A stretch of DNA of 64,000 bases from positions 2,170,001 to 2,234,000 of the forward strand of contig OX579635.1 of the NCBI GenBank assembly GCA_951230915.1. Direction: 5' to 3'. How positions within the stretch are numbered: position 1 is the stretch's first letter; each line of letters opens with the position of its first letter. This stretch comes from Antitrichia curtipendula. Taxonomy: Eukaryota; Streptophyta; Bryopsida; Hypnales; Leucodontaceae. Positions 1,289 to 47,265 of the stretch are shown here, piece by piece. The translations under genes and the position numbers were made by a program. Under the pieces are notes generated by a model. It saw only the letters and a list, made by a program, of their open reading frames with translations, did no database searches and was not told the DNA's origin.

Positions 1289-2849
1289 CCGGAGGAGCTA
1301 GAGCAACGAAAGAAGGAGATTGCAGAAGAGAAGAAGAAGACGACTTGTTTCAAGTGTGGAGAGATGGGACACGGGAGCAAGGAGTGCACAAACGAAAAGA
1401 AAAAGAACGACAAAAATAAGAAGACAGAGCCAAAAGTTGACGTTGAGCATGTCCATTGAGTTTTTATGGCATCGTCACCAGGCAGTTACTCAAATAGCCG
1501 ATACCTTGATAGTTGCCGCTCTCAACATACGAACAAACATCATGAATGGTTCTCCATGTACAAAAATATTACTTGTAAAAATGAGCTTGTCAAAGGCATC
1601 GGAGGGGTGGTGCTCCACGCTCAAGGAATTGGTAATATTATGTTCAAAACGCTGATCGATGGTCATGAAACTGTAAACATTTTGAAGAATGTTCACGTCC
1701 CCAAGCTTGGCCGAAATTTGTTCTCCACTTCGCGAGGTGTGCAACGCGGCATTGAGATTCTTCATCGACCGGACGGTTGCACACCGACAGTGGGAGCCAA
1801 AACTGTCATGCAGGGAGTTGAAGAACATGGCGTTCATCAATTGCTCATGCCTGTTGTTCAACCTTCAGCAAGCTATATTGATTCGGCTTTCCGTGCTTCC
1901 GTTATTGGAGTGCCAAGTCTCAAAGATAGCAAGCGGAGTCTCGACGTTTGGCACATGAGACTCGGGCACTTGCATCACCAAATGATCAAAAACATGGAGA
2001 AAGAGAATATTGTTGATGGCGTCACAATCAGCGATCGTACCGCATCATTTTGTGCAGGATGTGCCCGTGGCAAAAGCCATCGATTCGTTCTTCCCCGGAA
2101 AGAACATCGTCAGAAAGCAGAATCAATTGGAGACCGGGTACATTGTGACTTATGTGGACCGGTCAATATTGCCACCGTTGGTGGCGCCAAATGCTTTGCA
2201 TTATTTAAAGACGATTACTCCGGCTTCATAGTCATTTTTTGCATCAAAGTTAAAGCTTTAGCTCTTGAGTGCATGCGACGTATTTGTGGGAAGTTGGAGC
2301 GTGACACATGTAGAAGAATAAAAACTTCACGCTCCGATAATGATATCGAGTTTTGCAACAAATTATTTCTAGAATTCCCGTTGATGAAAAATGTTCAACA
2401 TGAGACGGGACATGAGACCACCGTACCTTGCACACCCAAACACAATGGAGTGTCCGAGCGAGATAATCGTACCATTCTCGAAGCGGCCAGAAGCATGATT
2501 TGGGCAAGCAACGTACATCCCAAATTTTTTGGGGAAGCGATACATATGGCTACGTACTTATTAAACCGCACAAGCACTCGAATGCTACGTTCATCAACAA
2601 CGTACCAAGTTTGGTATAATGCAAAACCATCGGTGGCTCACGTCAAGATTTTCAGAGCTAAAGCTCACGTTCACATTCCCGATCAGTTACAATGAAAAAA
2701 TGGACCGCAAAAGTAAGAAATGCATTCTCATGGGATACAGCGAGACAAGTAAGGCCTACCGTCTTTGGGACAACGAGTCACGACGGATCATTGAAAGCCG
2801 TCATGTCATATTTGACGAGTTCAGTTTTAACTCCGGTTCCAAATCTTAG
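1289..2849 (+). pseudogene. Ty1/copia retrotransposon gag-pol remnant (zinc knuckle, protease, integrase)
   Basis: A CCHC zinc knuckle of gag (CFKCGEMGHGSKEC) is encoded at about 1346-1387. An in-frame TGA at 1457-1459 separates it from a 409-codon frame that begins in protease. The protease motif reads LDSC where the family has LDSG. A GAG-pre-integrase segment follows (LGHLHHQM, then CAGCARGKSH, an HHCC site). The integrase core then shows D in HCDLCGP, D in RSDNDIEF and E in HNGVSERDN, the DDE triad. Near 2640-2700 the reading moves by one frame into KMDRKSKKCILMGYSETSKA, the conserved segment downstream of the integrase core. Reverse transcriptase and RNase H are absent, so this is a 5'-half fragment. 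Family identity is certain from the motif order; activity is excluded by the stop, the frameshift and the missing RT. Confidence 0.93.
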
Positions 2850-4850: not shown

Positions 4851-6112
4851 GTCTAGTTGGGTTTAGGATTTAGGATTTTAGGGAGGGCTTCAAGGTGTAC
4901 ATTAAGGACTTCTGCTTATTCAAGATTATTTTCCCTTGCTGATTTTGCCTTTCATGACTTGGTTGGAGTACAACCATTGCGGTAGAGCGAAGTCCAAGAA
5001 GAGTGTGTTGTGGTGGCACTTATTGTGAGAGCAACAAGTGTTGTTTCCACATCACATTTCAAACAGAATACTAATCATTTTTTTGGTGCAGGGGCAGGTA
5101 AAAGAGGACAGATAAGAGCAATGGGTGGAGCAAGATCACAGTGGGAACCTTGGTACACACTACGGCCAGATGGAAAAGTTGTTTGCAAGTTTTGCGAAGC
5201 TTTGCTAAGCTATCGAAAGGATCGGTTGCTTTTCCATTTGGGATATAGACGAAATGACACCCTCCTTGGAGTGAGAGCGTGCACTAAAGTCAATGCAGCC
5301 GTGAAGGTAATGTTTTTTAATTGTGGAGGACATATACCTACAGACACTTCGCATGGAACTGGACGCGACGTGGAAGTGACATCACCATCAACGATACTAC
5401 CAAGTGTAGTACGTGGTGAGCAACAACATGATGCTTCAATCTCGGCAAACGATGGAGGAGAAAACACTGGGGGCAAAGCTCTCAAGTACGATCATCAGAG
5501 GCGCCCAACCCTAGTTTGACCCACAGTCGATCGATGAGGCAACTGTCTCTACAAGAAAGACTAAATGCATCAAACAAGCAAGTAATTGACAAGAAGTGGG
5601 CTAAGTTTTTCTACGAAGCCAATATACCATTCAATGTAGTGAGGCATCTTGCTTTTCTGGATGCAGTGAAATCAACATCGGAATCCAGAGTTGGCTACAA
5701 ACCTCCAGCGTACCATGCACTTCGTACAAAGCTCATAAAATCTACAAAAGACGAAGTGGCAGCAATTGTAGCAGAGAAGACGAGGGCACCAATCCACAAA
5801 TATGGCATTACAATATGCTCTGATGGATGGGACAACGTTACACATCAACCATTGATGAATGTCATGTTGGCATGTACAAGTGGAGAGGTTTTTCTTGGAT
5901 CGATAGACACAACAGGCGAATGCAAAGATGCTACTTACGTGGCTAATTGCATGGGTGATTACATTAACGAGGTAGGGGCACAGAACATGGTACAAGTTTG
6001 TACAGACAATGCAGCAAACATGTTGGCCGCTGGCGCTTTGTTACTTTGTAGATATCCACACATATATTTTCAAGGGTGTTCAGCACATGCACTTGACCTT
6101 CTACTTGAAGAT

Positions 6113-6115
6113 TGA
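6113..6115 (+). other. Nonsense codon TGA at a conserved Trp of hAT
   Basis: The frame reads LLLED-stop-GKQDWITSM. The hAT family has Trp after LLLED, so a TGG to TGA (G-to-A) change explains the stop. The frame stays open on both sides. Confidence 0.75.
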
Positions 6116-6219
6116 GGAAAACAAGATTGGATTACAAGTATGGTCAAGAAAGCCAAGTCAATTGTGAAATACATTCGAACGCATCACATGCCACTTGCAA
6201 TCTTTCGACGACATTCTCC

Positions 6220-6223
6220 TAAT
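6220..6223. repeat. Target site duplication TAAT, left copy
   Basis: TAAT lies directly before the element and is repeated directly after it at 20464-20467. It falls inside the Pro-Asn codons of hAT. Confidence 0.85.
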
Positions 6224-6257
6224 GGGTCTACATGAGCTAATATGAGCCACTTGCGAC
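6224..6257 (+). repeat. Left terminal inverted repeat of the 14.2-kb element
   Basis: It begins GGGTCTACATGAGCTAATAT and ends GCGAC. It pairs with 20430-20463, with mismatches at positions 5, 6, 30 and 32 and identity through the 23-bp core. Confidence 0.93.
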
Positions 6258-8573
6258 ATGGAGAGGGTGCTTAACGGAGTCCTTTATGTGCAAGTGTGTT
6301 GATGACTGCCGTTTTTGACAAGCCTTGCTGGACTTCCACCTGGGCGCGCAATTTTGAAATGGCGCTCCTGCTTTCATTCCTCGCAACGGAATCGGACTCC
6401 CGTTCTCTCTCTCCTCTCGACGTTACGGTTGACGAGGTGCTGTCAGGCCAGTTTTTTTGAGGTTTCATTTTCTCTTGTGTGGAAAAAGGGAGGAGTTACG
6501 GAGCTCGCACCTTGGAGTTTATGGTTTGAGGTCACAACTTAGGGGTTTACGGAGCTCGCAGCTTGGGGTTCAGGATTAGTTACGGGCTTACATTCACTGC
6601 GTTTAGGGGGGGTTCATGGATTCATCACTTGTACGTGGAGAGTCCGCACGTCTTGTGAAACAGAGGAGGACCTCATTGGAGAGGAAGCCACGACCAGTGA
6701 AAGCTGGCGCCAGTGTTCCAGAGCTCTTAACGGAGCTAGCGAACTTGAAGGCTCAGACTCATGAGTTTTTTGCGACTGACAGAGGCTTGTGTGGAGAAGG
6801 ATTAAACCCTAAACTCGCTAGCGATATGGCTGTGGTGACACAAGAGAAGATAGAGGAGGTTTGGGGGAAATGTACAACCTACAAGACTACCAACAGTGCA
6901 TTGCCGCCAGAGAGGAGGAGAGAACTCGTCGAGTTGTACGCAAAAATTTATGGGAAAACGGAGGTCACAAACAACGAGTTCATGGCGTGGGTAGTTAAGG
7001 GAAACATTGCAGAACAAATGGGACTAAAGGTCGACTGGGCCTCTGCGGCTTCGTCCACTTCGTTTACACTTGCAAGCCGTGTAGAGGGAGATTTGGTACG
7101 ACGTGATCTTACATCTGAGCAGCTAGCTCGGTTGCAGGTTCTGGCCCCCCATGTAGCACCAAGAACTGCCGGATCAGGTAGAAAAGGAGCGATAGGGACA
7201 TCTGAGCAAGATTTGAAACCTGAGAGGTCTCTTTCTGCCATTGGTCACGTTTCAGACGCAGATCTTGCAACTATTGAGGAGGTGCTGCGAGTGGAAGAGG
7301 AATTCCTGGTGGGCAGCCAAAATAAGCAGCAAATTCTCTTGGCAGCAAAGAAGACCATGGAGGAGAAGATAGTTATGTACAAGTTTAGAGTGGACGATCG
7401 ACTGGCCGATGCAAAGGAAGCTGCTGAAAATGTGACAGCGGTAGAGGAGGCTTTGGCAAAGATTGATCTACAGATTGCTAATGTCTTGGCCTCGGTAATA
7501 CTTCCCGATTCTCTTTCCATCCTCTACTGCTGTGAGCCATGGCTTGTCAAGCTTCAACTCTAGGTTTGTTGGTGATTAGGTGAAGGGTTTCAGGGTTTAG
7601 GGCGTCTACCTGAATGGTGGATGCTTATTTTACAGGGTCAAATTTGCAGTGATGTGCACTTCACGAGTTTTGAATTTTCAGCTTCTTATCACTCGTGTGA
7701 TTCATGGTTCTCCAAGTTTTAGGGTTCAGCATTCACGGCAAAGCTTTGGGGCTGCCCAGTCAAGCTCTACGTTTATTAGATTAAAGGAGTCAAAATTTGA
7801 CTTGGTTGGGCCCAAATATGCTTTTTGATTTTCAGATTATTCATGCTCTGGTTTTCATTGGCTTCTGAAATCTTAGGGTTTGAGGTTTGGAGATGCTGAG
7901 TACTTCTCCTCTGTCATTGCCCTTATGAAGGTCCAGGGTTACAGGGACAGACTTGACGAGGGGAATGACGGATTCACTCTGGGACTAAAGAAATTAGATG
8001 AACTGAAGTGTGATAGAGACGTATTGGCACGCAAGCTAGACTTTGCTATTTTTGGCTCTGACGATGCTGCGAGGAAGTCCAAAAAAGCACAAGCCCTATA
8101 CGAAGATGTATGTCTGGAATTGAGGAACTCAGAATTGGACATGCAAGCTGTTTGCGAAGAAATCTTGGAGTTTAGGAGGCACAAAGAAGCAATGGCTAAT
8201 GAAATTGAGAAGCTGAAGGCTGGTGCAGGTGTGCATTGCTGTCCGAAACCTTGTTTGCACCCTCACGAAGTTGAAGAGGCTGTAGGTCCTTTTATGCTTG
8301 AGCCTTGTGCTGTTTGCAATCGTTGGTATAACTCGTATGACGTAGTCATGGCGAGCTGCCGACACTTTTACCACCCTTTCTGCATTACAAAATTGGTAGA
8401 AAGAGTAAATAGTTGTGTAACTTGCAATGAGGTATTTGCCCCTAGTTGGTGGGCATCATTTGGATTCCAGAAGATGCAACCGGGAGAAGATGCTACAAGG
8501 CTTCGGTTGGACAAATCAGTGTGTGAGCTGAGCGACACAATGAAGTGCAGTTTTGGAATTCGGAGTCCAATGT

Positions 8574-9770
8574 GTAAGTGGCCTCATTCCGTTCTCTGCT
8601 ACTGGATTAGGGTTTGATTGAAAACAACCTTCTTCACCTCTGAATGTGCAACGTTGCTTGGAAATAAACCTCTGTCATTGATCAAAATTTGAAAGCTTCC
8701 TTCATAATCTGCTCCTCTACTTGAATATGTACACTGTTGATTTATAAGTTTGCTAGGATCCTTCTATGCTTGCTGTGTTCCTATAAGTTCTGAGTTCTTG
8801 CTTGAAATTCTGCTTTCTGGCTAGAAAATGTGCGTGGTTGGTACTATGTTGGTTGTGTTGCTTAAAATGTAGCCAATCACTTGTTAGAATATGTGCTTGG
8901 GTGCTACTACCTTTTATTTGTTGCTAGAAATTCTACTTACTTCCTAGAATTTGTGCTTGTGTGCTAGTATGTTTCTAGATGACTGCTTTGATGCAAGAAT
9001 TTATCCTTTGTTGCTGGAATATGTGCTTGGATGCTACCATCTCTACTTTCTTCCTAGAAATGCTACTTCCTTCCTAGTGTATGTGCTTGGGTGCTAGTGT
9101 ATGTGCTAGGGTGCTAAATTATGTGCTTGGTTGCTACTGTATGTGCTTGGGTGCTACCGTATGTGCTTGGTTGCTACCGTATGTGCTTGGTTGCTACCGT
9201 ATGTGCTTGGTTGCTACTGTATGTGCTAGGGTGCTATTGTATGTGCTAGGGTGCTACTGTATGTGCTAGGGTGCTACCTGATATGCTGTGTTGCTAGAAT
9301 TTTGGCTTTGATACTCGAATTTATGCTTTCTTGCTAGAGTGTGTGCCTGGTTGCTACTATCTTTGCGTTCTTGCTCGAAATTGTACGTCCTTCGTAAGGC
9401 ATGTGCTTGGGTGATACCAGCTTTGCTTCCTTGATAGAATCTTTGCTACCTTGCTAGGAACTTTGCTTTCTTGCCTGATTATGTGCTTTGTTCCTTGAAG
9501 GCATGCTTTACAATTTCAATGGTTGCTTTCTTGCTAAAATGTTTTATTCTTGCTATGATTTCTGATTTGTTGCCACATTATGTGTTGAAATGCTGAAATG
9601 AGATTGCAAAGTCTTCTCTTATTGGTATCAGCTGATCTCTTCTATTCTACTCTGTATATTGGAGTTTCAGATCTTACATCTTTGAGAATGTGCTCTCCTA
9701 TTGGTGGCTGGCCAGCCATCATCCCTGCTCTTGTACTTAGAGATTTAGCCTCTTTTCTTGTATTTTGCAG
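8574..9770 (+). repeat. Intron 2 of gene A, inverted duplicate of an intron block in the transposase gene
   Basis: From the GTAAGT donor to the TTTTGCAG acceptor this block matches the minus strand of about 18250-17190. Shared stretches include GCCTCATTCCGTTCTCT, the region ending GCAACGTTGCTTGG, and CAGATCTTACATCTTTGAGA near the 3' end. Both copies hold a related 20-bp minisatellite. The match seems to end at the intron borders. Confidence 0.85.
8790..9560 (+). repeat. 20-bp minisatellite (TGCTACCGTATGTGCTTGGT units) in intron 2
   Basis: Units such as TATGTGCTTGGGTGCTACTG repeat with a 20-base period. They are most regular at about 9080-9270 and degenerate outwards. A reverse-complement relative is at 17370-17960. 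Confidence 0.9.
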
Positions 9771-10865
9771 TATCACAGTCGAAAGGGAAGCACTCAGATT
9801 GGGGATCCACCGGGTCCATCCAACAAGTGCATTCTTTGCTACCATGCACGTCTGGCAACAAGCTTGTTTCTGGGTCCTTTGTAAGTGGAGGATGTCAAAC
9901 TCAGGATGAAGCGACAGAAACAGGAAATGACGATTCACAACAGGTGGTTGACTCGCCAGTAAAACAGCCCTATGCTGCTCGGCTGCACCAGTCCGGGGTC
10001 ACGCAGGCTCTCTCAAGTGCTGTAGTACCGCTGGATAGTAATGCCCTGCGAGTGGTGGAAGCCACAGCTAGTAAGAGCCTGTGCATACATGTGTGTTCAT
10101 TTGATTTTGGGATGCCCTTGCTTACTTTAGTAGTCTTCTAGTGTAGAGTGAAGTAGGCTTGGGGTGGTAGTACATCGTTTACTAGGTTCTTGCAAGAAAC
10201 GTGCAAGCTTCAATGACGAGTTGGAATGCCGTATGTTTTGCTGAGGTACAGTCTACATGTGCCCGTTCGCCACAAATCCTAATAATCGTGAACTCACGTG
10301 TTTCCACTTGCATTCATGGTGTCGATCTTCTGAGTCACACTTCTCTTGTGCCTCCTTTCCGATGCATTCAGTTCGTTTTTGGAGGTGATTACCAATTTGT
10401 ATGGTTCAGCAGGGGTCGTGCATGGAAAACTTGCTGCATATAATGTGGTAGAGGACAAAAGTGACGATGACAATGGAGCTGAGAAAGGGATTGAACAGGA
10501 CGCACATGAAAATGAAAGTGGGAAGGGGATGCACGGGAGTGGAGAGGGGCGTTATTCTATCACCGGTAAAAGAGCCCACATTCCTGCCTTGGAATAGCAG
10601 GGGCTTCGAAAAAAGGTTAGTGTATCAAGTTTGGGGAAATCGAGTGGAGAACTGGAAAAGGCAGGTAAAGCTCAAGTGCCAGCCCCTACAATGCGTCACA
10701 CTCGCCATTCTCTTGCCAAACAGGTTGAGGCCGAGGCAGCAGAGAAACCCAAGAAGAGCGGTAGGAGTAGGCATAAGAACAAGTGATCGTTTTCTTTGGG
10801 TTGAAAATATGTATCCCAGAGGTCTATTGCATCTTCCCAACCACAACGTCATACATTCTGTATAG

Positions 10866-11046
10866 GTGGATGCTACAGGCCGCATGCAGGTATTTGTGGT
10901 TTTGTTTTGATCGAGAATTGGGACTGGGTTATTATTTTGACGAGAATGGAGTCTGCACAGACAACAACTTGCTGAAGGTTTACTGGATGGAGATCAAGCA
11001 ACAGAGGAAGCTCGATTGGCAGACTAGCACTCCCGCTTTTGTGTAA
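10866..11046 (+). pseudogene. Putative further exon of gene A with a one-base slip
   Basis: An acceptor-like TGTATAG precedes a segment reading VDATGRMQVFVVLF. A run of four T at about 10904-10907 then shifts the frame into DRELGLGYYFDENG and a tail ending WQTSTPAFV before TAA at 11044-11046. One T fewer would join the two frames. The segment looks coding, but how it links to exon 4 is not clear: exon 4 has its own TGA at 10784. It may be an alternative or former 3' exon. Confidence 0.45.
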
Positions 11047-11049
11047 ACC

Positions 11050-14000
11050 TGGTCTGCATGCTATACTTCTCTGAGCTAGTAGATACTAGGTGTCATCTCT
11101 TTCAGACCAGCATAGATGGAGAGGAATTTGTACTTCACAGATGTACTACCTAAGCAACTATATCAGGAATTTTCATTTCATTCATTTACTTGTAGTTGAC
11201 GTGTGAAACGGATGTGGTGTAGGAGATGCTGACTAAGTATATCTCTTTGCAGGTGGCCTGTGCAGTGAGACCAACAGGGGACACCGGTCCAAAAAAATGC
11301 CCTGATTGACAATAGCAAGCTGCCAACTTTATTTGCACCTAGATTTGTAGCAACAAGTTCACTCTATTGATTGCATGAGTGCCCACATCACGAGCTTGCA
11401 AAAACAGCTTATACAATAAAATTCATTGAATCATCATGCTATATGTTTGTGCCCTGCTTTCAATTTTTGGTTATAATGCTAACTTTGAGTACTGGATTTG
11501 CCTTATTTGCGATGCAGATCTACTACTTATTTATTACTTAGTGATTGCTACACATTCTGTAGTGCCAAACTAGTTTGCTTTGGGCTTAGTTCTTGTTATG
11601 GCCTTAGAACAAGTTATTGTGCACACTTTTTGTTGTAAATATCAGAGTGCACTAATCATTTACTGCTTTGAAAATGACTACATTTATATTCTAGAAGGGA
11701 GTGAAAAGTTTAGTATACACTAAACTTGTCTTTAAAATTGTCTTCAAAATTGTCTTCAAAATTATTGGTTTGCCAAGTCTCATTGTCTCATTGTGCCATA
11801 GTGTCCACAATATTTAATCCCTAAATGCTCTAGGCCTTTATTGAGCTTCTAGGAATTTGCTCCAAATTGAACAAAAAGACAACATTTGGATAAGTTATAT
11901 CAATTTTTTGTAAATGTAACCATACATAATCAAACTAGACACATTAGAGATCACATAGGATAAAAAATCACAACAATAATGTTTATGAATTGAAAGAATG
12001 TAATGTTTAATCATAAGGATGCTAAAATTGTAAATGTGATTTGAAGTCTTTTAATCCTTTTTTCACAAGTCAAATCTAAAATGTGGTCACCCAAAAAATG
12101 AGCTTTAAGGGCCTAACATACATAACCGGAATCAAATTATCACTTTTCAAAAACTACTCAACAGTTTTCTAATGGGATTCCAATGGCTAAAAAGGAATTT
12201 CTAATGGGATTTTTTATCCAAGATCTAGTTTATTTGAGGCTCGTTTCTAAAAGTCCTCAACACTATGGAGAGTAAAGATTGCAATAGACAACCTTGCAAA
12301 AAAACTTAAATAGAAAAATCGTAATCAATTATTATCAAAATCGGATTTATAGTGCTAAAACTAGACTTCAAAAAGAAAATTTTCAAAAATACATACTACT
12401 AAAAATAATTATTTGGTTAAGATTTATTTTAACTTCAAACTATTGTCAAGACTAAGAAGGAAAATACTGCAACAAAGTCACATTGTAAATTGCAACATAA
12501 GCATGTCAACAATTACATCTTCATGTGTTCAAAATACACCTTGTTATTGGAAAGCAATATTTTTTAATATTGCATTTGATGCAAGTTTTTTGTTTGAGTT
12601 CTTTACTACATGGTAAAACTTTTGCCTATAGCACATGTTTGCTCATTTTAGTTGTAACCTTATTATGTATAATATATTATGAAATGCAAAATTTGTCCCT
12701 AATTCCAAGAGGATGAAGTGTCACCTTAGTCTATAAATGGAAAGTTGGGTATAATTCTATAAACTCTATTTTATGTATGAATTTTTTTTTAATTTATAGA
12801 AAAATAGATTTGTTTTAGGGATTATAGTTTTCATTTCCAATTTCCTATCAATGTGTTATGTGTAAAAGCAAAAGGTATGGCATCCACGCTACAAAATGGA
12901 TTTTGTAGGCAAAAAAAAAAATGACAATCATTTATTAAAATTTGTTATAGAAATATTCTTGTGTAAACGGAAAGATTTGATACTTTCTATTTGGGTTGCT
13001 AATAAAAAAGTCAAAGAAAGTCTTATGTTGGGAATAACCATAGCATTGTTTTTTTTTAAATAAATGATTGCATTCATTTTTTAATTCAATTTTTATAGTT
13101 TTTTGAAAAAATCAAGTTCGACATGCTTTAATTTCCTCTCTAAACCCAAAATCTCATTATTGGAATTATATTTCATTTATGTATTTTTATCAAATTATTA
13201 TTATTTTTAAATTACATAATATAAGTATATAGATTTTTGGTTTGAAACAAGGTAGTATCTTCAATTCATTTTGTATTTTTGTAAAACTCTAGGTGAATTA
13301 TTCTTTTATTTTTTGATACAACCAAGGTTGTAATATTCTTTTTCATCTTCCTTTTTTTGAATAAGGCATATTTGGGTTCATTTTGTATTTTTGTATAGAG
13401 TTAGGTTGTTGATTTTTTTTTGATAACAATATAGGTTTTGAAATAGTATTTTTTTTAAGAACAAAATAGGCCTACATTCTTTTCTTATTTTTGTAGTGAC
13501 CATATTCTGTACTTTTCCTTTTCTATTACGAACTAGGTCCATCAATGAGATTTGATTGGAAAATTGAGTAAAAAAGCACAGGTTTCTATACTACAGGGGC
13601 TTCTATAGTGTAGCAGTGGATGGTTCTTCCAGCAAAGTAGAAATTTAGGCAATGTCAGACAATGAGGCTCCACACTCATCTAGAGTCTTTGATTGGTTGC
13701 TAGGTTGTTTTCTTATCTAATTTGTATAATTTTCTTTTTAGTTTGACCTGCTCCATCAATAGAAAGTTGCACACTAACCGGAAAGTTCTAACTTTTGAAA
13801 ATGGCAGGTAAGGTCTGCCATGTCAGTTTTGTACATGGTCATTGTATTGCCAGCATTTCCTTTTGAAAGCGTATTTTTTGCAAGAGCAATGTATTTCTAG
13901 TCTTTAAGAATTATAGCCAACACTTTATGAATTAGCTCATTTGAATTTCAATTGTGCTAAGCCCTTCCAAAGCCAACAAGAAAAGAAAAAAAATTAAAAA

Positions 14001-14340
14001 CTAAAAAATGCAACTTCTAAGCCCTACTGAATGTTGAAATATGGCCAAATACAAGACTTTTAGTCAGTGCACAGTATACAAGGAATTTCCCAAGACATTA
14101 GAATCATTAAAAAAAGCAACAAAAAATTAGTATCACTGGTCAATTGCTACCATGTTCTGTTGTCAAAATCTCATTGAAGGAAACCCTCATGAAGGAAGAC
14201 AAACATTGCTATGTATACAGAAACTTGCACTAAAGCAACCAAATACGTGCGCCATGCTTTGTATCAAACATCCTAAAGGGGTTAAAAAAACAGTTCAACT
14301 GATCCACTCCAGCTCTAGTCGAACTGGACGCTGACACACT
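11050..14340. other. Non-coding AT-rich middle of the 14.2-kb element
   Basis: No gene-like frame longer than about 65 codons and no family motif was seen. Poly-T and poly-A runs are common. The two genes converge on this region, so their 3' ends and polyadenylation signals are expected near its borders. Confidence 0.6.
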
Positions 14341-14359
14341 ACAGCTCATTATGCAACAA

Positions 14360-14495
14360 TGCACGGTGCCTGGTCATTATGCTGCAGATGCTTCAAGGCG
14401 GGGGGGGCCTCAGTTGCCGCTTTTTTTTTTGAAAAATTGCTGGTCATCTATGCTGCAGATGCTTTCAAGGCGGGGGGGGCCTCAGTTGCCGGTTC
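14360..14495. repeat. Two tandem copies of a roughly 65-bp unit with a G8 run
   Basis: The unit contains TATGCTGCAGATGCTT, then CAAGGCGGGGGGGGCCTCAG, and ends in CAGTTGCCG. The two copies start at about 14376 and 14449 and are separated by a short poly-T. No coding sense. Confidence 0.8.
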
Positions 14496-14693
14496 TTAAT
14501 CAAAACAGTGGCTGATCATTATTCAGCTGCAGATGGTTGGTCACTGCTTTTTAATAAGGAAAATCCCTTGCTCCAGTTCAGTTCCCTTTTAACAAGAAGG
14601 GTATTTGTTTAGTGCAAATTCTTGAGTTAGTGATCATTTTAAGGATACAAGGACAAGTTTGCCTATAACACGAGTCCAAATTATTTCCCAAAA

Positions 14694-14826
14694 CGTGAAA
14701 TGCGAGTGCAAGCCCCACGCACATGACATTCACACAACTGATACACCACAAGCCAGTCACGTGAAATGCGAGTGCAAGCCCCACGCACATGACATTCACA
14801 CAACTGATACACCACAAGCCAGTCAC
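14694..14826. repeat. Perfect tandem duplication of a 66-bp unit
   Basis: GTGAAATGCGAGTGCAAGCC starts at 14695 and again at 14761, and the whole 66-bp unit is identical. This suggests a recent duplication. Frames through it are repeat artefacts. Confidence 0.95.
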
Positions 14827-16305
14827 AGCAGTTTAAGAATGCTATCGGAAAATCTGGCAGCAAGATGTGCAAGTTCACATGGCATACGAAGTGCAAGGCA
14901 ACGATTTCCTGTAAGTTCATTGAAATGAATTCGTATTAAATAGAATACGGTTACAAAAGGCATAGATCGCACCAACAAACAATGTGTCCACACATAATGT
15001 ACAATCTCCTCTTTCAAGACCACAGATTCCTCCACTGCTAATCTAACAATGCTGCGGCACGAGCAGCCTCATCGATAATCTCCTTCACATCAAGCTTCAA
15101 CTCAAACCCCGCAAATCGACTCTTCACAGGGTGCGAGATAGGAGGCAAGCTGAATTTTGAAGTCAACAGCAAATGGCTATAAACCGAACTCGGTTCCTTA
15201 TCGTTTCTCAACAAATAAGTACGACTACCTTCTTTAAGACGCTCGTACCAGAAACCTGAGAAAATAACGTCCCCAGGGCCATACCCATTCCCTTCTGGGT
15301 CTGTAAAGCTGTCTTGAAGCGTGCGTGTTGCAGTATGCACTAGCATCAGCCAATATGGCTCCTCCTGAAGTGGTGAACGCACAGCAACATTATCTCCAAT
15401 GCAAAGCCCGTCGGCGATCCACTCACGGTCAGGACCAGCTTCCACCTCCTCGTCGTTGTTGTACAATTGGCGAGCTTGGCTTGGTCGCTTTGGAGTCAAC
15501 CTTTCCATTGCACATGCAATTACAGATGACAACAACATTCAGTCAATCAGTAATGCCTCCAATAAATCAAGGCAGGATACCACGTAAGTTAGAACATCAT
15601 GTAGCTGTTTGCCAAAATACCCACCCTCAACCAATACAGCAGCATTCAAGAAAGAGTCTGGCAAAGTCAGCTACAAAGGGAGAACTCCCACCTGTGCAAG
15701 ATGAAGCTAGGAGCATGATCTGATTGGTAACAAGGACTCTCATAGTCATAACCAAGACAAGCATGACAGAGGCAGCTCAATTGCCGATACTGTATCAACG
15801 TCGGGTCTCTGGCGGACACTGACCGGCACTGGTGATTTCCCATGCTGCCTGGCACCGTTTCAGCCTGAAGAGGGTCGGTTCTGTCCACCGAACCAGGTCC
15901 AGAGACTGGAATCTTCCAAAAAAATTTACTTGTAGTACATCGTGCACCCCGTGGCCCTGCATGTGCTTTCCTGGATTCTTCTTTCAAGAATGCCACGATT
16001 TCTGCAACATTCTGGAGCTTGCGCCCATCCACCTTCATTTGTTCCTTTCGTATGTCTCTTTTTAGAAGAGCACCTGCATCATCCACTTCCCCCTTCCCAT
16101 GCCCACTTCCAAAATAATTCCAACACATTTGGCACCCAGAATTTAAACTCACACCACTAGTGAGATTAGGATACCTACTAATGAAATACCAAGCACGTGA
16201 AGACTTAAACTGACCACTACATCCATCAGACCAGACAATGTGATTAGAAGGTGAGAAACCTTGATTGCGCACATGCTCCCAGTTCAACATGAAGCACTTT
16301 TGCAC

Positions 16306-16308
16306 CTA
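16306..16308 (-). other. In-frame TAG within the transposase exon
   Basis: The reading is ISDDKIHDSL-stop-VQKCFMLNWEH. Both sides are clearly the same protein, so this is a nonsense change, or less likely a short intron or recoding. Confidence 0.65.
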
Positions 16309-17189
16309 CAAAGAGTCGTGGATTTTGTCATCAGAAATGTAATAATGAATTTCTTTCAGAAGCAGTGGCTCTTCGTTTTCAGCTCTCCATGCAGGATTAG
16401 GTCTGTAGGTTATATGCACTAGAATGGTTATCTTGTCATTATACCAATGCATTGATTGGATTTCGTTTTGAACCTTGAGAGTATAATTTTCAGAGAAATC
16501 CACACAAGATATGAGAGTGTCTGCAGGAACAGACCCAAACAGCTCCCGGAATTGGAAATCCTGCCAAGTTGCAATGTAATTATGAAGTACAAAAGCTTGT
16601 AGTTTGGGTTTGAGATAAGCGATTAACTCACGCGGTGGTGACTCTCGATACTCCATCGTCACCACTTTCTTTGGATTTCCATCTGCAGTTGTTCCCACTA
16701 CCTTGTATCCAATGCTTTTCCACTTCACGAGCTGGTCAGTGCTTTCTTCAAGTGGACAAACCATAAGCAGCTGTAAGCCACAATCTGGACACTCTCCTAG
16801 TAAACAAGCCCGACGATGCCAAGCAGAGAACTCAACTTTCTCACATAAAATGGATGACCACAAGTTTGTTAGTCGTTCATATACTTCACGATGAGCATTG
16901 CAGAAGCGGCCAGCATTTGCAAAATCCAAACCACCACAGACAAATTCACAGTCACAATTGCAACTACTGTGAACTCCAAGCTTATCTACACGCATGGTGT
17001 CAAGAGCTCTGAGTAGCTCTAGCAGCTCCTGATGATACTTACAACAGCATGTATTCCATAGCCGTAAACGCCTAACCCACCACGGTTTCATGCTCTCAAA
17101 AGAAGTCAAGCTACAGAGCAAGTTAGGATACATGGTCTTGAAGCTCGTGTAGAACTCGAGATGCACAACCGTAGCTGCCGTTAGAAATA

Positions 17190-18250
17190 AAACAGAGGAA
17201 GATACTAAACAGTCACAGATATTGCAAAATGAGAGCAAGGAGGCTAAATCTGTAAGTATAGGAGCAAGGTGATGGCTGGCTAGCCACCAATAGGACAGCA
17301 CATTCTCAAAGATGTAAGATCTAAAACTCCAATAGAAAGAGTAGAATAGAAGAGATCAACTGATACTAAAGCATGAATTCTAGCAACACAGCATATCCAG
17401 TAGTATCCTAGCCCATACAGTAGCACTGAAGCAAATACATTAGCACCCAATCACATACAGTAGCACTGAAGCACATACATTAGCACCCAATCACATACAG
17501 TAGCACTGAAGCACATACATTAGCACCCAATCACATACAGTAGCACTGAAGCACATACAGTACCACCCTAGCACATACAGTAGCAATCAAGCACATACAG
17601 TAGCACCCAAGCACATACAGTAGCAACCAAGCACATAATTTAGCACCCTAGTACATACATTAGCACCCAAGCACATACATTAGGAAAGAAGTAGCATTTC
17701 TAGGAAGAAAGTAGAGATGGTAGCATCCAAGCACATATTCCAGCAACAAAGGATAAATTCTTGCATCAAAGCAGTCATCTAGAAACATACTAGCACACAA
17801 GCACAAATTCTAGGAAGTAAGTAGAATTTCTAGCAACAAATAAAAGGTAGTAGCACCCAAGCACATATTCTAGCAAGTGATTGGCTACATTTTTAGCAAC
17901 ACAGCCAATATAGTATCAACCACGCACATTTTCTAGCCAGAAAGCAGAATTTCAAGCAAGAACTCAGAACTTATAGCAACACAGCAAGCACAAAAGGATC
18001 CTAGCAAACTTTGAAGCAATAGAGCCAATATTCAAGCAAGAGAAGAAGTATTGTATAAAAACAACATGTTATAAATCAGCGATGCACATATTTAAGCAGA
18101 GGCGCACATTCTGAAGGCATGAAACAAATTCTGAGCATTGATTGAGGTTTATTTCCAAGCAACGTTGCACCTTCAGAGGTGAAGAAGGTCGTTTTCAATC
18201 AAACCCTAATCCATTAGCACAGTTGAAGGAGAGAACGGAATGAGGCTACA
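17190..18250 (-). repeat. Intron block of the transposase gene, inverted copy of gene A intron 2
   Basis: Read on the minus strand, the block begins GCCTCATTCCGTTCTCT at about 18246. It passes through the 20-bp minisatellite and ends near TTTTGCAATATCTGTGACTG, where the plus copy has TTTTGCAGTATCACAGTC. It therefore covers most of intron 1 of gene B. Confidence 0.85.
17370..17960 (-). repeat. 20-bp minisatellite (AGCACATACAGTAGCACCCA on the plus strand)
   Basis: The 20-bp units are most regular at about 17400-17660 and are the reverse complement of those at 9080-9270. Copy number and unit order differ between the two sites, so the arrays have drifted since duplication. Confidence 0.9.
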
Positions 18251-19159
18251 GGAAGATACCAAACATTCAGAGGATTGCAAGCAACGTGGAAGTGTAAAGG
18301 AACTATATTTTTACAATATCTGAGATACTTGTAGGAAATGGATAGCATGGGAGACCCATTGCCGTGGACCTTCGTGGAAAGTCACAACATCTTTGCGGTT
18401 TGGGGACACTGTCGTCTCTTCCGCCCACCACTGCTCAACTAGAGTCTTCACATTTTTAGCAAGGGAGTCGCTCCGAGTCTTTCTCCAATGGTGCAGCCAG
18501 AATGCATCTTGAGCAGAGTCTAGTAGTACTCGTCTTCCTTGCACCTTTGAGATATTACGCCTGTCCACCCCTAACAACCCAGCAATTCCTCTTCCAATGC
18601 CAACATTTCCCTTAGAAGCGAATGTACACAAAATATCCTTTGCCATTATAATTTTAGAAGTTTTCTGACCCACCAAGTGCTCTCGCATGTCTTCTCGCAC
18701 ACTGCTAAGAACGGAATGTCCCAACTTCACAGATTCTAAGTTACTCAAGTACGCTGGAGTGATGTCAGCCATACAAGTGTGTCCCAAGAGTTTCTCAACA
18801 GTGAGAGCTCGTATGTTCCTATCATACTGTTGAAGACGCTGTGCTGTAAATGCAGCAATTTCCTTCGCTACATGCACAGTAATTCTATTCACCCTAGATG
18901 CACACAAATCAGAAGTACCCGGCGATTCACAAGATGGATTGGAATCAATCGGGACTTCCCTGTTGGCGCCAGCTGCCTTCCTTGCCCTACAACGTCGTGT
19001 TCGCTCCCGACTGTCTCTTTTGCGCTTTTCAGCATACCATGCTTGGTGTGCCTCTTCTAGTCCACCTTGTGCCTCTCCTAGTCCAGGTGGGGCACATTCT
19101 AATGCTTCAGCAGAAGCCATTTCTTCTGCCATTTCAGGAATGAGTGGCCTCACCTAGAA

Positions 19160-20429
19160 AAAGAAGGTGCATACAGTAAAAAAGTCTAATTTTCCAGGTT
19201 GATCAGGCTCTTATCCCCTACACCCTAAACCCTAATTCACCAGTGATCCCTTTGGTGAGAAGAAATTGTTCATCAGCTAGTCTTCATGCCTTTTGTTGGG
19301 TATACTTCACACTGCTAGCAGGACGCTTACACTGTGAAGAATACCCATTGCAACCACACTCCCCACACAAAACCCACCTCCGCAAACGCCATGTATTCTT
19401 TCCGCGGCAAGCACTCATCAAACCCTCTCAAAACAAAAACGACGCAAACAATACTCCGTCAAACAACATCTTAACGTCAAAAAACCTACCCAAAACAGCC
19501 TCATTCGTGCATCACACACGTTCTCACCCTGAACCCTAATTCTTTGTGGATGCATGGGTCCTGTTGCGCAAAATCGATGACAACAAGAAGTAAACCCTAA
19601 AGCAATATAACTTCAAGCTTGCAATGAGGTAGAACTTACCAAACCACTTATTGAACATAACTTCCAGAATGCAATGAAACCCTACTTCAATAACCGAAGT
19701 TCTGAAGATCACCCAACCTTCCACTCCGCTCCACAGACCCTAAAGTAGCACCCTCCCGCATCGATCGTCCTGGTTCTGCATTGTAGATGCAGCTTTGGCT
19801 TCTGACAGTTTCCTCACAAACAACAAGAAATGAAATGCACGCATAGCACCTGGAGAGTATGGATATCCCATTTGAACGCAGTCTTCATCGTGAGAGTGGT
19901 GGCGTGAAAGCAAAACCTGTACGTGCAACAAGATCCTACTCTCTGCAAGCCAAAAAATTGTCTTACAAAAGCAGCGTCTTCAGCGTCATGTGTCCACCAA
20001 TGCAATGCAGCACTCAAGGTAACTGGCGGCTGAAGCAAAACACGGCAGAAGCAGAAACACAAGCAGAAGCACTAGGATCCGAAAGAGACAATAGGAACTA
20101 ATCCCTAAACCGCAGTTGGGTTCATCCGCAAATTGCGCTCATCCAAACACAATCATCCACTGACGTAGCTAGCAACCTCGATCTTCTGAAGTCACTTATT
20201 CATCTTTCACTCAACAATATTCATCCGTTTAAGGACCTTTCAGCACAAAAAGCACTGGTTACATGAATATAAAGTTGCTTTTGGGATCTCAAACAATGAC
20301 TAAAAGTGGATGGCATTACAAAATAAGATTCTCTAAAGTTTATAAAAAAAGAAAACATAATCTTCAAACCAAAATTCAATCACACTTTTCACACAACTAT
20401 CCTAAAGCATTTAAAAAAGGAAGTGTTAC
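19160..20429. other. Right subterminal non-coding region of the 14.2-kb element
   Basis: It lies upstream of gene B and should contain its promoter and 5' UTR. A TTTTTCTAG acceptor just before 19153 suggests an intron in the 5' UTR. Short CCCTAAACCC motifs occur near 19220. No gene was recognised. Confidence 0.5.
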
Positions 20430-20463
20430 GTCCTAAGTGGCTCATATTAGCTCATGTGTACCC
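20430..20463 (-). repeat. Right terminal inverted repeat of the 14.2-kb element
   Basis: On the minus strand it begins GGGTACACATGAGCTAATAT and ends AGGAC, matching 6224-6257 in inverse orientation at 30 of 34 positions. Confidence 0.93.
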
Positions 20464-20467
20464 TAAT
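20464..20467. repeat. Target site duplication TAAT, right copy
   Basis: Directly follows the ACCC end of the element and repeats 6220-6223. Confidence 0.85.
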
Positions 20468-22444
20468 CACGATTTGAAAAATCCCGTTCAAACACGCTTT
20501 GCTACCATGTTCCTCATGATCGAACGTTTGGTGGAGGTGAAAGAAGCGATAGAATCGACAGTCCACGATCCGCAGTGGAATGAGTACACGCGGAGATTGG
20601 CATCCAATCAAAAGCAAAGAAAAGCTAACGATGTGCGACGATATGTGCGAACGGTTGAATTTTGGAGAAAATGTTTGAACTTTGTGCACATAGTGAAGCC
20701 CGAGTTGATTGCTCTTTGAGAGTTTGATGGCAAGCACCCGTGCTTAGACAAGGCATGGCTTGTAATGAAAAAGGTGGAAAAGCATGTTTTATCTTTGGAG
20801 GATCCACCATTTTCATTAGAGCGGAGATATGCAATTTCCGCCACCGATGATTTCTACAAGCGCTGGGACATGCTCAGGACAGATTTGCATTACGCTAGGG
20901 CTCTATTGGATCACTTTTTACTTGACGAAGTCATGCTAATGGATGATAATGAGGCAAGAGAAGCCATACTGAGAGTTTTGCGCAAATTGGCTGTTGGAGA
21001 TCAAGCATTTGCTTCAGCTTTGTCTGAGTACCAAGCATTTAGAGATCGGCGAGGCATTTTCGGTGGACTTCCTGATGTAAACGCCTTGAATTTGCAACCT
21101 CACGAATGGTGAGACCTTCTCGGAGCCGGTGCTCGTACACTTGCACCGATTGCCAGAAAGATCCTCGCGTAAGTGTGTTCTGCATCATCCTGTGAACGCA
21201 ATTGGAGTATGTATTCGTTTGTCCACAACAAATCACGCAATAGATTGACATCAGAGCATGCTGAGGAATTGGTTTACATTTATACCAATTCTAAGACTCT
21301 TAGAGAAAGGGCTGCAGCAAATCCGACAAGGTGGTATACTGAAAACATGATGTCAGAGGATTCCATGACAGATGAATCTGATGGTCTAGACCGTGGTTCA
21401 GTTCTCTCTGATCCCAATGATGACGATTCAGATGATAGTTCCAATGACGACGATGAGCCACCGTTTGATAGATTTCGTGGGGCGGGAGGAGTGCGTCCTC
21501 TAATTGATGCATCCGTATTTGACTTTGAAGAGGGTGATAACAATGACAATGACTACGAGGGACATCAAGGAAGTCCACCACGAATGCCACAAATGTGGAA
21601 TGCTGGGCCAAGTAGAGGCAATACAAACGAGGACGTTGTGGCACCGAGACCACTAAGTCCAGACCCTATGGATGTACAAGTTGATGCCACAATAGAAAGA
21701 GATGGTGTTGACGTTCAAAGAGGACGTGAAGAAGACGTAGTAGTACCACCGTCATTGCCCATGAGGACCACCCGCAGTGAAGGGCCCCCTCAAGCTGGAG
21801 AAGCATATATGGCCCCTCCAAATCGAGTCTCGGTTGCACAAAGGCAAATGCCAATATTGGAAAATCTACAAATCCAAAGTTCATCAAGGCCGTCTAATTT
21901 CGACGGCCGTCCACACGAACCAACTTCGTCGATAGGTACACGATTGGCTGGTATGGTGTCATAGCGTGTGACTAGAAATACGACTTCATTGCGGCCACCT
22001 ATACATGCCAATAATCGAGGGAAGCGTCCACGACCACAAGGTACTACTAGTGAACGTGTAAGTAGTAGAACGCATAGAAGGTTGAGGAGGGAAGAAGCGG
22101 CTTCCCAACCATTTTCAAGAAAAGTTCAAACAGGAGGACCCAATACAGATGGCATCATGGACGCAATGGGCCAACGACCTCTTCGGACGTTGATTTCTAT
22201 AGCTCGACCACAACGAAACCGCAATTCCGAGGCCTCTAGCAAAAGTGGTAGTGCAACATCCAATGATGATGGTGAATCCATCGGTGGTACTATAGGTGAA
22301 GATGGTGAGGTTCCAGGAGATAGTGATTACAGGGGGCCGGTGCCTCGACAAGGTCCACTCGAAGAAATGGGTGGTAGTGAACCAATAGTACAAGAAGCAA
22401 ATGCAAATATTTCTATGCGCATTCTTAGGCATGGAAGACGTTGA
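20464..22444 (+). pseudogene. hAT transposase, 3' half (dimerisation region and acidic/basic tail)
   Basis: This continues the frame of the 5' half: NPVQTRFATMFLMIERLVEV, then WRKCLNFVHIVKPELIAL. A TGA follows at 20717-20719, then EFDGKHPCLDKAWLVM and LNLQPHEW, then a TGA at 21110-21112. DLLGAGARTLAPIARKILA comes next, then a TAA at 21170-21172, then the hAT C-terminal dimerisation signature SASSCERNWSMYSFVHNKSR and LVYIYTNSK. A long Asp/Ser/Glu-rich tail follows. One more TAG at 21962-21964 precedes a basic segment that ends at TGA 22442-22444. All parts share one frame with no indel, so decay was by point changes. Family knowledge puts Trp at the 21110 site (EWW) and Gln at the 21170 site (ILAQ). 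Confidence 0.92.
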
Positions 22445-30596: not shown

Positions 30597-31244
30597 TTAA
30601 ATTGCAAATTTCCAAAAAAATAATTCTACGAGTCCCAAGTGACAAATTGGGAGCTCACACCAAGTATCAGGGAGAACTACGTTTTCTGGCTGATTCAGAA
30701 TGTACTTATTTGGACTGTCGTCCACGACGATGGTATTCTTGAGTGTAAATCTACCTCGGAAACAACTGAATATGCTTTCCAAGTCCTTGAGAAACAACAC
30801 CTTGCTCGTGCCTGGCTCCTTGTAAACCATAACCCTGGACGAATGATCTCTACATTTGAGTGTCTTACAGGAGTCTTGTCCAAGTATAAAATCCGGCATG
30901 CGGAGTCCTTCAAAGAGATACATGCAGACCGCTTCAGCTGTGGGTTTCTTGATCGAGCTCCACACTGATATCGAAGCTATCCTTTCTAACTGCAGGAGAA
31001 ACTCAGAGCAACGTGGACGAACGTAGACTAGCTTGGGTCCCACAACAGCTGGAACAGTAGCGGAATGCGGTTGAAGGGAGTCAGTGACGCTTCTGGACCA
31101 ACCCTTTGACTTCAGATCTTTACAAACACACAATATCCCATTGAGGTCCAGGACGACGTGGAGCCACTTCTCGGACACCCTAGACTTCAAGGGAATATTG
31201 ACCTCCTCCAAGGTTCCTCCACGATCAGAAGGGGGAACAGGTCC
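30597..31244 (-). pseudogene. FCP1/SCP-like HAD phosphatase exon
   Basis: After a TTTAGCAG acceptor the exon reads GPVPPSDRGG, then KWLHVVLDLNGILCVC (the DxDG-type motif I position, with Asn replacing the second Asp), YVRPRCSEFLLQLERIASIS, VWSSIKKPTAEAV (motif II region), and finally NTIVVDDSPNKYILNQPENV, the conserved DDSP motif of FCP1/SCP/NIF phosphatases. The loss of the second Asp in motif I argues against normal phosphatase chemistry, although plant relatives with DLNG are, to my knowledge, common. This exon itself has no internal stop and ends at TAA 30597-30599. Confidence 0.75.
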
Positions 31245-44424: not shown

Positions 44425-47265
44425 ATGGCTTTCACAATGAATGATGGTGTCAACCTGAGCGACTCTGACATTGAAGATGAGGTGCCTCATGTCTTGAATG
44501 CTGACATCCCGGATTGCGAAGGCATTCCTCGTTGGTCGTGGAATACAAGATGTGTCACTCTCTATAACGCTGACGGCGTGCTTGTTGGGGAGGGTACTTG
44601 CCATAGCGTCAACTCGGACCTTGTGCTTGGTGCAAATGGTCCTCTTGGTGACACTCATGTTGGAGTTCACATTTCGAAGACTCATTCGGAAATGGACGTG
44701 CCCGAAGAGTGGATATATTCACTGCGGGCATGGCCGATTGAGCTCGTCAATTGCTGTGGAACTAGTCTTCAAGACCATGAGGCACGGAATGCTTTTAATC
44801 GTCTCCAAGCACGTCGCTTAAATCCATCCTCCTCGATATCCTCTCGTCCGTATTCAAGTGCGGTACGGAATCCTCCTCGCGAAGCTAACCTCAAGGCGAA
44901 GGAGCTCCTTAGCCAAGAGTCCATCAATGCAGTGTCGAGCAAAGTTTGCTGTCACAAGAATTGCGTTCAACCATTTCCAAGAGAGAAGATTCGGATCCTC
45001 CACGAACGAATGTATAACAGATCAACATTCAAGTTCAGAGCCCACATGAAGACTGATGTGCACAGGTCAGTTCATTATGACGAACGTGGAAGGAAGATGG
45101 TGACCATTGAAAAAGTAGACGTATGCATGCGGGCTTGGATGCATATTTCTGGTGTCCCCGAGGCTACATTCTATCGCTACCTTGCTTACTGGAAGGATGG
45201 TCGGGAAGCAAGAGACCATGGTAATTTGGGCTTGGTGAAGCCAAGGAAACACATAGAACAAGCAACTGCTACCTTGAAATGTATCATTGGGAAGGAGGCA
45301 GATCATATGCCACATTGTACTCGTACCCTCAAGTCAGGAGACAAGGTTGTATCAATGATTCTCCCGGCTACTTTCCAATGGAAAGGTCAAATTTCAAAAA
45401 TTAACGATGCCAACGCAGCGTTTGGGTTGAAAGGCATTTCTACTTCAAACTTGAGCAAGATCAGGTCCTCCAAGTTCTCGGAGTACGATGTGAAAAAACC
45501 CGGAGATAACTTTGCTCGTTGTGCTACGTGTGACAAATATCGCGAACTTCTGAAGGGTGCAATTGCTGGATCTCAATCTGCTTTGAAGTGGCAAATGTTG
45601 CTTGAAAAACATCTGGCTTTTGCTCGAGCACTTAGGGAGCTCTATTATGCAAATCGTTACCGGTCACATAATTTTCCGCATGAATGTTTGACAATCATGC
45701 ATGACAAGATGGACCATGCTAAAATTGCTTCTGTTGTCTTCTCCCACAAGAGTAAAGACCTTGATGGCCTTGTCAAGCTGCCTGTTTCAGTGACTGGCAT
45801 GATTGCGCACGGTCATGCTGATGTTCGATATGCGCATTACGGTTTGGATATTTTCCCCCATGATTCGAATTACACCATTGGTTCAATGGCAAAGTTGTTG
45901 CAGGATTTGGAATTGCCGCCAAAATATTCTTCTCGGCAATTGTTTGTGAATTCAAAGTCCACGACTTTGTTTGAGAAAGTACTTGCGGGTGCTCAAATGT
46001 GTGTAGCGGCACTGCCTCCTCTGCCTGAGATTTTGGTGCCAGGAACGCCATTACCGCCCATTCTCAACGAGCAGATGGACAATGCCACTGGAGACAACAA
46101 GAATCGATACGTCTTTTATTATTGGTCTCTACTTGTTGCAAACAAGATCTTCCGAGAAGTGTATGTGAACTTCATGATTGTAGGTCACACTCATGACGAC
46201 ATCGATGCATTATTTGGAAGATGGAGCATGCTTTTGAAGAAGGAGAGCTTTCCTACTATACCTGCGCTCATGAAGTCATTCATGGATGTAGAATCCATTC
46301 CCACTATCCCTCATCTCATTGAAGAGGTGCCCGATTTTAAGGGTTTCATTGTAGGGAAGTTCTTAGACGGTGGTGATATCATGGTTGGACATACAAGGCC
46401 ACAACAAGTGAAGTTCTACCTTGATTCAGATGGAGTCCCAGTCATGAAATACAAACTCTTGTGCACTAATCTAGACTGGTTACCAAAAAGTGCAGGCGGA
46501 GGTCTTAAACTGTGGCAGGAAGATTCTCAAGGTGAAAGTTTGTGGCCTCGTGGAGTGCCTTTGGCAATCTTGCCAAGTCCAATGAGAGGTCAAGATAACA
46601 TCCTCAAGGGTATGTCTGGGTTTGTTAAGTATTGGGAGAATCTGTGCAATCAAGACCGCACTGGGGAGTATCAAAGATTGTATGAGCACTTGGTGCATTA
46701 TTGGCGTGATTTGAAGGTGGCAATGCAGGATCCTTTGTCTACCTCTACGGTTTTGAACGACGGTTTCTGGCCCATGACCCGTATTCAAGCAGCACCAGAG
46801 GATGAGTTAACTGAAGATAGTGAGGTGCGTGAAGAGTTTGGAGAAGATGATGCATACGTCGGACCTTTGCGAGGTCGCCCACAACCATCCTTTAGGGTGG
46901 GTCGGAATCTTTATAAAAACTACTTTGTTGCAATTCGTCCGGCGGATGGTGATAATTGGCCAGTTTGGATTGCAAGGGCATTGTCAGATCCAAATTGTAA
47001 CCCAGAGAAACCAAATTGTGTCCTTCTTCAATACTTTCGTCCAACATCAAGAAACCAGGATGTTCAAGACAACTATACGGGATGGGATACCGAAAGAGGT
47101 TTACGCTGGAAGGTTGATGAAACTGAACCGCCGCTTTGGGAGCATACAGACGCTTTAATGACAGCATGGAGGTCTCAAATCAGAGCAGAGACTATACAAT
47201 GCATGATCAAGATTCCGACAATTCAAATTGAAGTCATCAACCAGAGTCTCGCTTCGTACACTTGA
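44425..47265 (+). CDS. DUF7869-type transposase-like protein, 946 residues, uninterrupted
   Basis: A single open exon from ATG 44425 to TGA 47263-47265, the only long intact frame in the window. Regions: an acidic N terminus; a Cys cluster (KVCCHKNCVQPF, about residue 172); a helical DNA-binding-like segment (AWMHISGVPEATFYRYLAYW, about 235-254); a CATCDKY zinc-type pair (about 370); MHDKMDHAKI (D427, D430); QMDNATGDNKNRY (D552); and VGHTHDDIDALFGRW (H588, D591). The QMDN...GHTHDDID pair is the hallmark of the plant DUF7869 family, which I believe to be transposase-derived with acidic residues in an RNase H-like arrangement. The C-terminal 130 residues (NYFVAIRPADG, VWIARAL, PNCVLLQYFRP) look like a BAH/Tudor-type reader. 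The intact frame suggests recent arrival or selection. Confidence 0.8.
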   Translation: MAFTMNDGVNLSDSDIEDEVPHVLNADIPDCEGIPRWSWNTRCVTLYNADGVLVGEGTCHSVNSDLVLGANGPLGDTHVGVHISKTHSEMDVPEEWIYSLRAWPIELVNCCGTSLQDHEARNAFNRLQARRLNPSSSISSRPYSSAVRNPPREANLKAKELLSQESINAVSSKVCCHKNCVQPFPREKIRILHERMYNRSTFKFRAHMKTDVHRSVHYDERGRKMVTIEKVDVCMRAWMHISGVPEATFYRYLAYWKDGREARDHGNLGLVKPRKHIEQATATLKCIIGKEADHMPHCTRTLKSGDKVVSMILPATFQWKGQISKINDANAAFGLKGISTSNLSKIRSSKFSEYDVKKPGDNFARCATCDKYRELLKGAIAGSQSALKWQMLLEKHLAFARALRELYYANRYRSHNFPHECLTIMHDKMDHAKIASVVFSHKSKDLDGLVKLPVSVTGMIAHGHADVRYAHYGLDIFPHDSNYTIGSMAKLLQDLELPPKYSSRQLFVNSKSTTLFEKVLAGAQMCVAALPPLPEILVPGTPLPPILNEQMDNATGDNKNRYVFYYWSLLVANKIFREVYVNFMIVGHTHDDIDALFGRWSMLLKKESFPTIPALMKSFMDVESIPTIPHLIEEVPDFKGFIVGKFLDGGDIMVGHTRPQQVKFYLDSDGVPVMKYKLLCTNLDWLPKSAGGGLKLWQEDSQGESLWPRGVPLAILPSPMRGQDNILKGMSGFVKYWENLCNQDRTGEYQRLYEHLVHYWRDLKVAMQDPLSTSTVLNDGFWPMTRIQAAPEDELTEDSEVREEFGEDDAYVGPLRGRPQPSFRVGRNLYKNYFVAIRPADGDNWPVWIARALSDPNCNPEKPNCVLLQYFRPTSRNQDVQDNYTGWDTERGLRWKVDETEPPLWEHTDALMTAWRSQIRAETIQCMIKIPTIQIEVINQSLASYT

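Follow-up and report, generated by a model that had tools for sequence, protein, structure and literature searches.

A 14.2-kb two-gene DNA transposon, likely of the Sola type, inserted in a hAT pseudogene of the moss Antitrichia curtipendula

The element and its insertion site

The window analysed here, 64,000 nucleotides of Antitrichia curtipendula (GCA_951230915.1, contig OX579635.1, positions 2,170,001 to 2,234,000 of the forward strand), contains a DNA transposon of 14,240 bp at 6224..20463 that interrupts a hAT transposase pseudogene. Its ends, GGGTCTACATGAGCTAATATGAGCCACTTGCGAC and GGGTACACATGAGCTAATATGAGCCACTTAGGAC, are terminal inverted repeats (TIRs) of 34 bp with four mismatches (left, 6224..6257, plus strand; right, 20430..20463, minus strand); the termini read GGGT...ACCC, and a TAAT target duplication stands on either side (6220..6223 and 20464..20467). 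Between the ends lie two convergent genes, one for a predicted DDD transposase and one for a RING-like protein, and an internal inverted repeat. Fifteen further copies were found end to end in the genome.

The 5' part of the interrupted hAT (5516..6223, plus strand) matched Pfam DUF659 with an E-value of 1.2e-34. The 3' part (20464..21964, plus strand) contains in-frame stops and gave a weak match to Dimer_Tnp_hAT, below the cut-off (E 0.012). Once the element and one TAAT are taken out, the hAT frame is continuous across the junction; elsewhere it is broken by at least four in-frame stops. The right-end query described below also matched the hAT flank alone at 22 places that looked uninterrupted. 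Nine of these were fetched, and all nine showed an empty site with a single TAAT, the joined flanks aligning at 94-98% identity, without gaps in eight cases and with two gap openings in the ninth (C2_25.4). An initial annotation of the window had described the 34-bp ends, the four mismatches, the TAAT flanks and the in-frame rejoining of the hAT codons; re-reading confirmed the first three, and the continuous frame together with the empty sites bore out the last. It had named hAT copies lacking the insert as support, and the nine paralogs are such copies.

Copies in the genome

We searched the genome (400,189,583 bases in 303 contigs, the window being C3:2170001-2234000) with both ends and paired left-end and right-end matches by position. 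The left-end query of 301 bp found 18 places: the window, 15 that start at or near element base 1, and the two halves of one left end on C7. The right-end query found 18 right ends, including that of the window, besides the places with hAT flank only. Paired, these give 16 end-to-end copies of 14.2-14.5 kb, nested inserts aside, which we call family A; left without a partner were the left end at C6:229005 and the right ends on C289 and C230, two small contigs on which the flanks are identical. The same last base was reached by nine of the ten other fetched copies, and the tenth (C173), whose right end was fetched separately from the ten-copy set, has a further insert, about 4 kb long, nested within it. 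As a side observation, the family A copy at C7:22476295-22506001 is interrupted near its left end by a different insertion some 15 kb in length.

Of the 16 copies, 15 are flanked by exact target duplications of 4 bp, whose sequence varies among copies. They read TAAT, AATA, TACT, AACA, TGGG, GCAA, CATG, ACTA and GGAT in nine of ten copies of a first set (TACT if the first base of that copy is taken as changed from G to A) and ACCA, AAAC, TGGA, AGAT, TGGA and AGGT in all six of a second. A 23-bp TIR core, with up to two mismatches allowed, matched the genome 35 times, always at family A ends (17 left, 18 right); read backwards as a control, it matched nowhere. No short non-autonomous derivative carried this core at that threshold, more diverged ones not having been sought.

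These results bear on the most trivial explanation of the locus, an assembly join or a chance inverted repeat. It could draw only on the fact that the first reading covered one window; it is refuted by the 15 other end-to-end copies, which have flanks and duplications of their own, by the empty hAT sites and by the restriction of the TIR core to family ends, and we give it practically no weight. The several copies with such ends and 4-bp duplications that the initial annotation had asked for as support do exist.

The transposase gene

For the transposase, on the minus strand, we infer three exons: an open frame at 18320..19132, a middle exon at 15692..17160 that holds three conserved aspartates, and a last one at 15038..15500. 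Some relatives read through the second junction without an intron, and in family B, described below, exons 2 and 3 form one frame. The predicted model of the 490-aa middle exon (pLDDT 86.5) adopts an RNase H or integrase fold with the three aspartates; across 49 sequences D221 was invariant, and D312 and D360 were conserved in at least 90%. We regard the protein as a predicted DDD transposase, in which these three aspartates would carry out catalysis. A sequence search against solved structures found nothing convincing (best E 0.54), PHROGs held no family for three proteins of the analysis, and among 133 pattern matches in viral_contigs no relative was confirmed.

In the window copy the gene is broken by the loss of two splice sites and by one stop. 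The donor after exon 1 reads AT for GT, the acceptor before exon 2 reads AT for AG, and a TAG stands at 16306-16308. Both sites are kept in all nine other readable copies (C173 is uncovered at either position; C2b has CAA for CAG before the GT), and the TAG is absent from all ten other copies. The window copy, as read, cannot make its own transposase. In the genome search the middle exon was stop-free in ten of 16 full-length family A matches, a seventeenth (C10b) being a partial match only. Few fetched copies look whole, because the other exons add damage: all four transposase pieces were stop-free in three of ten, and in two of these three the RING exon contains a stop.

Inside the first transposase intron lies the right arm (17481..18052, minus strand) of an internal inverted repeat of about 570 bp. 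Its left arm (8706..9276, plus strand) aligns to the right one at 92.5% over 573 columns, and the repeat contains 20/40-bp tandem units. The repeat is kept in all other fetched copies that cover its span.

Elsewhere in the window, a 946-codon open frame at 44425-47265 (plus strand) contains a DUF7869 domain (E 2.7e-39). By eye, its D and GHTHDDID (GH...D) motifs line up with those of the DDD transposase; profile comparison by hhalign gave a probability of 0.2%, so that a link between the two proteins is not significant. DUF7869 was named in no paper of the literature searched.

The RING-like second gene

The second gene begins with an open frame at 6616..7563 (plus strand, exon end provisional), which is conserved in the ten fetched copies and, at 48%, in family B. 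It would continue in a RING-H2-like exon at 7931..8617 (plus strand), for which Pfam returned zf-RING_2 with E 1.2e-4 and for which 12 of 226 candidates proved to be relatives, a single one having a precomputed zf-RING_2 domain. RING-H2 domains follow the ligand pattern C-X2-C-X(9-39)-C-X(1-3)-H-X(2-3)-H-X2-C-X(4-48)-C-X2-C. This pattern is complete in the window and mostly kept in the relatives, one cysteine being replaced in two of the 12. Compared with solved structures, the poor model of this protein first hit an unrelated surface protein (E 0.0022, no stretch passing) and then the RING ligase RLIM (E 0.024).

Sister families

Beyond family A, a genome search for transposase relatives, in which 87 of 466 candidates were scored, gave matches at about 70%, 55-61% and 40-43% identity. 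Two sister families could be defined from them, B and D, with transposases about 71% and 41% identical to that of family A and elements of 14.6 and 15.3 kb. The copies read share one plan in all three families: GG(G/A)T ends, 4-bp duplications, a DDD transposase and a RING-like partner.

The family B copy L043/L044 measures 14,626 bp, has the ends GGGTGCACTTGAGGTAACATGAGCC and GGGTACACTTGAGGTAACAGGAGCC and a GCCT duplication, and contains both genes. The transposase-side end of this family matched the genome 14 times. Eight more copies were sampled at their ends; six showed both, and in two the far end lay outside the fetched stretch. Including L043/L044, six of seven paired copies have exact 4-bp duplications. 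In family D, copy L045/L046 is 15,253 bp long, with the ends GGGTGAATGCATGG and GGATAGATGCATGG, an AGCA duplication and a RING-like protein of about 25% identity. The other D copy read, L047/L048, aligns with it just partially and showed no right end.

Classification

The initial annotation had placed the element outside hAT, MULE, CACTA and PIF, and the length of the duplication bears this out. According to excerpts of a plant annotation review (PMC10741241), hAT elements make 8-bp and Mutator elements (MULEs) 7-12 bp duplications, CACTA elements have CACTA/CACTG ends and 3-bp duplications, and PIF/Harbinger elements make 3-bp TAA/TTA duplications; GGGT ends and varying 4-bp duplications rule out all four. 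PIF/Harbinger elements do resemble the present one in having two genes, one of them a transposase, although their second protein is Myb-like. Ginger, in the same excerpts, comes closer with 4-6 bp duplications and an integrase-type enzyme, to which the integrase-like fold of our model may be compared. It differs in its TG...CA ends, which rule it out against GGGT...ACCC, and in a Gypsy-like integrase, whereas the transposase here has no Pfam match.

What these excerpts say of Sola fits better: a DDD transposase, 4-bp duplications, TIRs of 11-1124 bp and a size of mostly 2-9 kb, with some elements over 15 kb. Sola is given there as present in the moss Physcomitrella and seemingly uncommon in flowering plants; a review table, likewise seen in excerpt, lists Sola1 in Physcomitrella and also has a Capsicum entry (PMC9033089). 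Every trait that can be compared agrees, namely the duplications (15 of 16 copies in family A, six of seven paired ones in B, one copy in D), the conserved aspartates in a confidently predicted RNase H-type model, the 34-bp TIRs and the sizes of 14.2-14.5, 14.6 and 15.3 kb. Since duplication length, triad, TIR and size all fit, the element is likely of the Sola type, set beside Sola by its published description, in a variant that exceeds the usual 2-9 kb and has a RING-like partner. The initial annotation was right to see the element as large and complete, precisely bounded by inverted repeats and flanked by a 4-bp duplication, and other copies do occur; its assignment to a poorly described lineage was incomplete, Sola being a known home for such duplications, and it had missed the two genes, the broken state of the window transposase and the sister families.

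The RING-like gene might be a host gene captured by a Sola-like transposon and carried as a passenger without a role in transposition. RING-like motifs are common in host proteins. That a Sola element may hold a gene besides its transposase is shown by excerpts on Sola2 elements with captured Fanzor1 in Dictyostelium and Polysphondylium (PMC3627910); these share with the present element 4-bp duplications and the combination of a Sola-type transposon with a second gene, and differ in AT-rich duplications and a TnpB-like protein, compared with mixed duplications (GCAA, TGGG, CATG) and a RING-like protein here. Against a passenger speaks that the layout was kept while the transposases diverged to about 41% identity. 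Between families A and B, moreover, the RING exon has a dN of 0.39 and a dS of 1.78 (dS is saturated for the other three exons). Finally, the relatives P0138 (RING-like) and P0050 (transposase) are both listed with a longest contig of 213,937 bases and therefore probably share one contig. We hold the capture of a passenger to be unlikely.

A second alternative places these large DDD transposons, with their two genes and 4-bp duplications, in a separate superfamily outside Sola, with the RING-like protein as a needed partner. It could appeal to a transposase without a Pfam family, to the convergent layout shared by families A and B and by one D copy, and to the literature, in the searched part of which no paper combined Sola, RING finger, DNA transposon and transposase. 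Duplication length, triad, TIR and size, on the other hand, all fit the excerpted Sola description (PMC10741241), and we regard a separate superfamily as rather unlikely. More doubtful still is the boldest form of this idea, a new superfamily of giant cut-and-paste transposons that bring along a RING-type ubiquitin ligase as a transposition partner, kept across families with about 40% transposase identity.

Taking all this together, we consider it quite probable that the insert is one of 16 end-to-end copies of a DNA transposon that encodes a predicted DDD transposase of RNase H fold and has a RING-like gene, likely a Sola element and likely moving by cut-and-paste. Several observations weigh against this. 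The transposase found no match in Pfam, and a Foldseek search with its model returned a single match at E <= 0.001, a NurA nuclease. The likely Sola link is built on published traits, and transposition is read here from sequence and a predicted model. For the second gene, the zf-RING_2 match lies below the curated cut-off, the protein model was poor (pLDDT 49.7) and left unused, the RING exon carries a stop in three of ten fetched copies, and no RING-like match was found in the second D copy. As to the duplications, one of the seven paired family B copies reads CCCA/CCCC, and the family A copy C6a lies between ATTA and TTGG. TTGG also flanks the unpaired left end at C6:229005; the outer flank of one copy here agrees with the far flank of its neighbour, which suggests that these two inverted copies (C6:229005 and C6:260771-275122) exchanged flanks.

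Movement and age

In a cut-and-paste cycle the predicted transposase would cut at the GGGT-ended inverted repeats, and the cut ends would then be joined to a 4-bp staggered cut in the target. The RING-like protein would most likely act as a helper of the ubiquitin-ligase type, either for the transposase or against host silencing. With its transposase gene broken, the window copy would need the enzyme of another copy to move again.

Ten complete copies, including that of the window, differ pairwise by 0.88-1.42% in all pairs but two, and C>T or G>A accounts for 336 of their 443 private changes. The closest pair, C10a and C10c, is 0.12% apart at a distance of about 34 kb; the window and C3b are 0.39% apart at about 132 kb. 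Both pairs have different duplications. Divergence of about 1%, together with closest pairs on the same chromosome, suggests that the family spread in a recent burst and that copies hopped locally.

The literature searched says little about Sola elements of plants. With its ends and empty sites defined, ten of 16 matches stop-free in the middle exon and signs of recent movement, this family would make the likely cut-and-paste cycle directly testable. A RING-like partner kept in convergent layout across families would, if true, provide a concrete DNA transposon with a ubiquitin-type helper, and it raises the question of whether helpers of this kind assist the transposase or counteract silencing.

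Other features of the window

Upstream of the interrupted hAT, a Copia-type pol fragment at 1466-2695 (plus strand) matched Pol_BBD, gag_pre-integrs and, weakly, rve. Downstream, a domain like that of the NLI-interacting-factor-like phosphatases is encoded at 30597-31211 (minus strand; E 3e-15).
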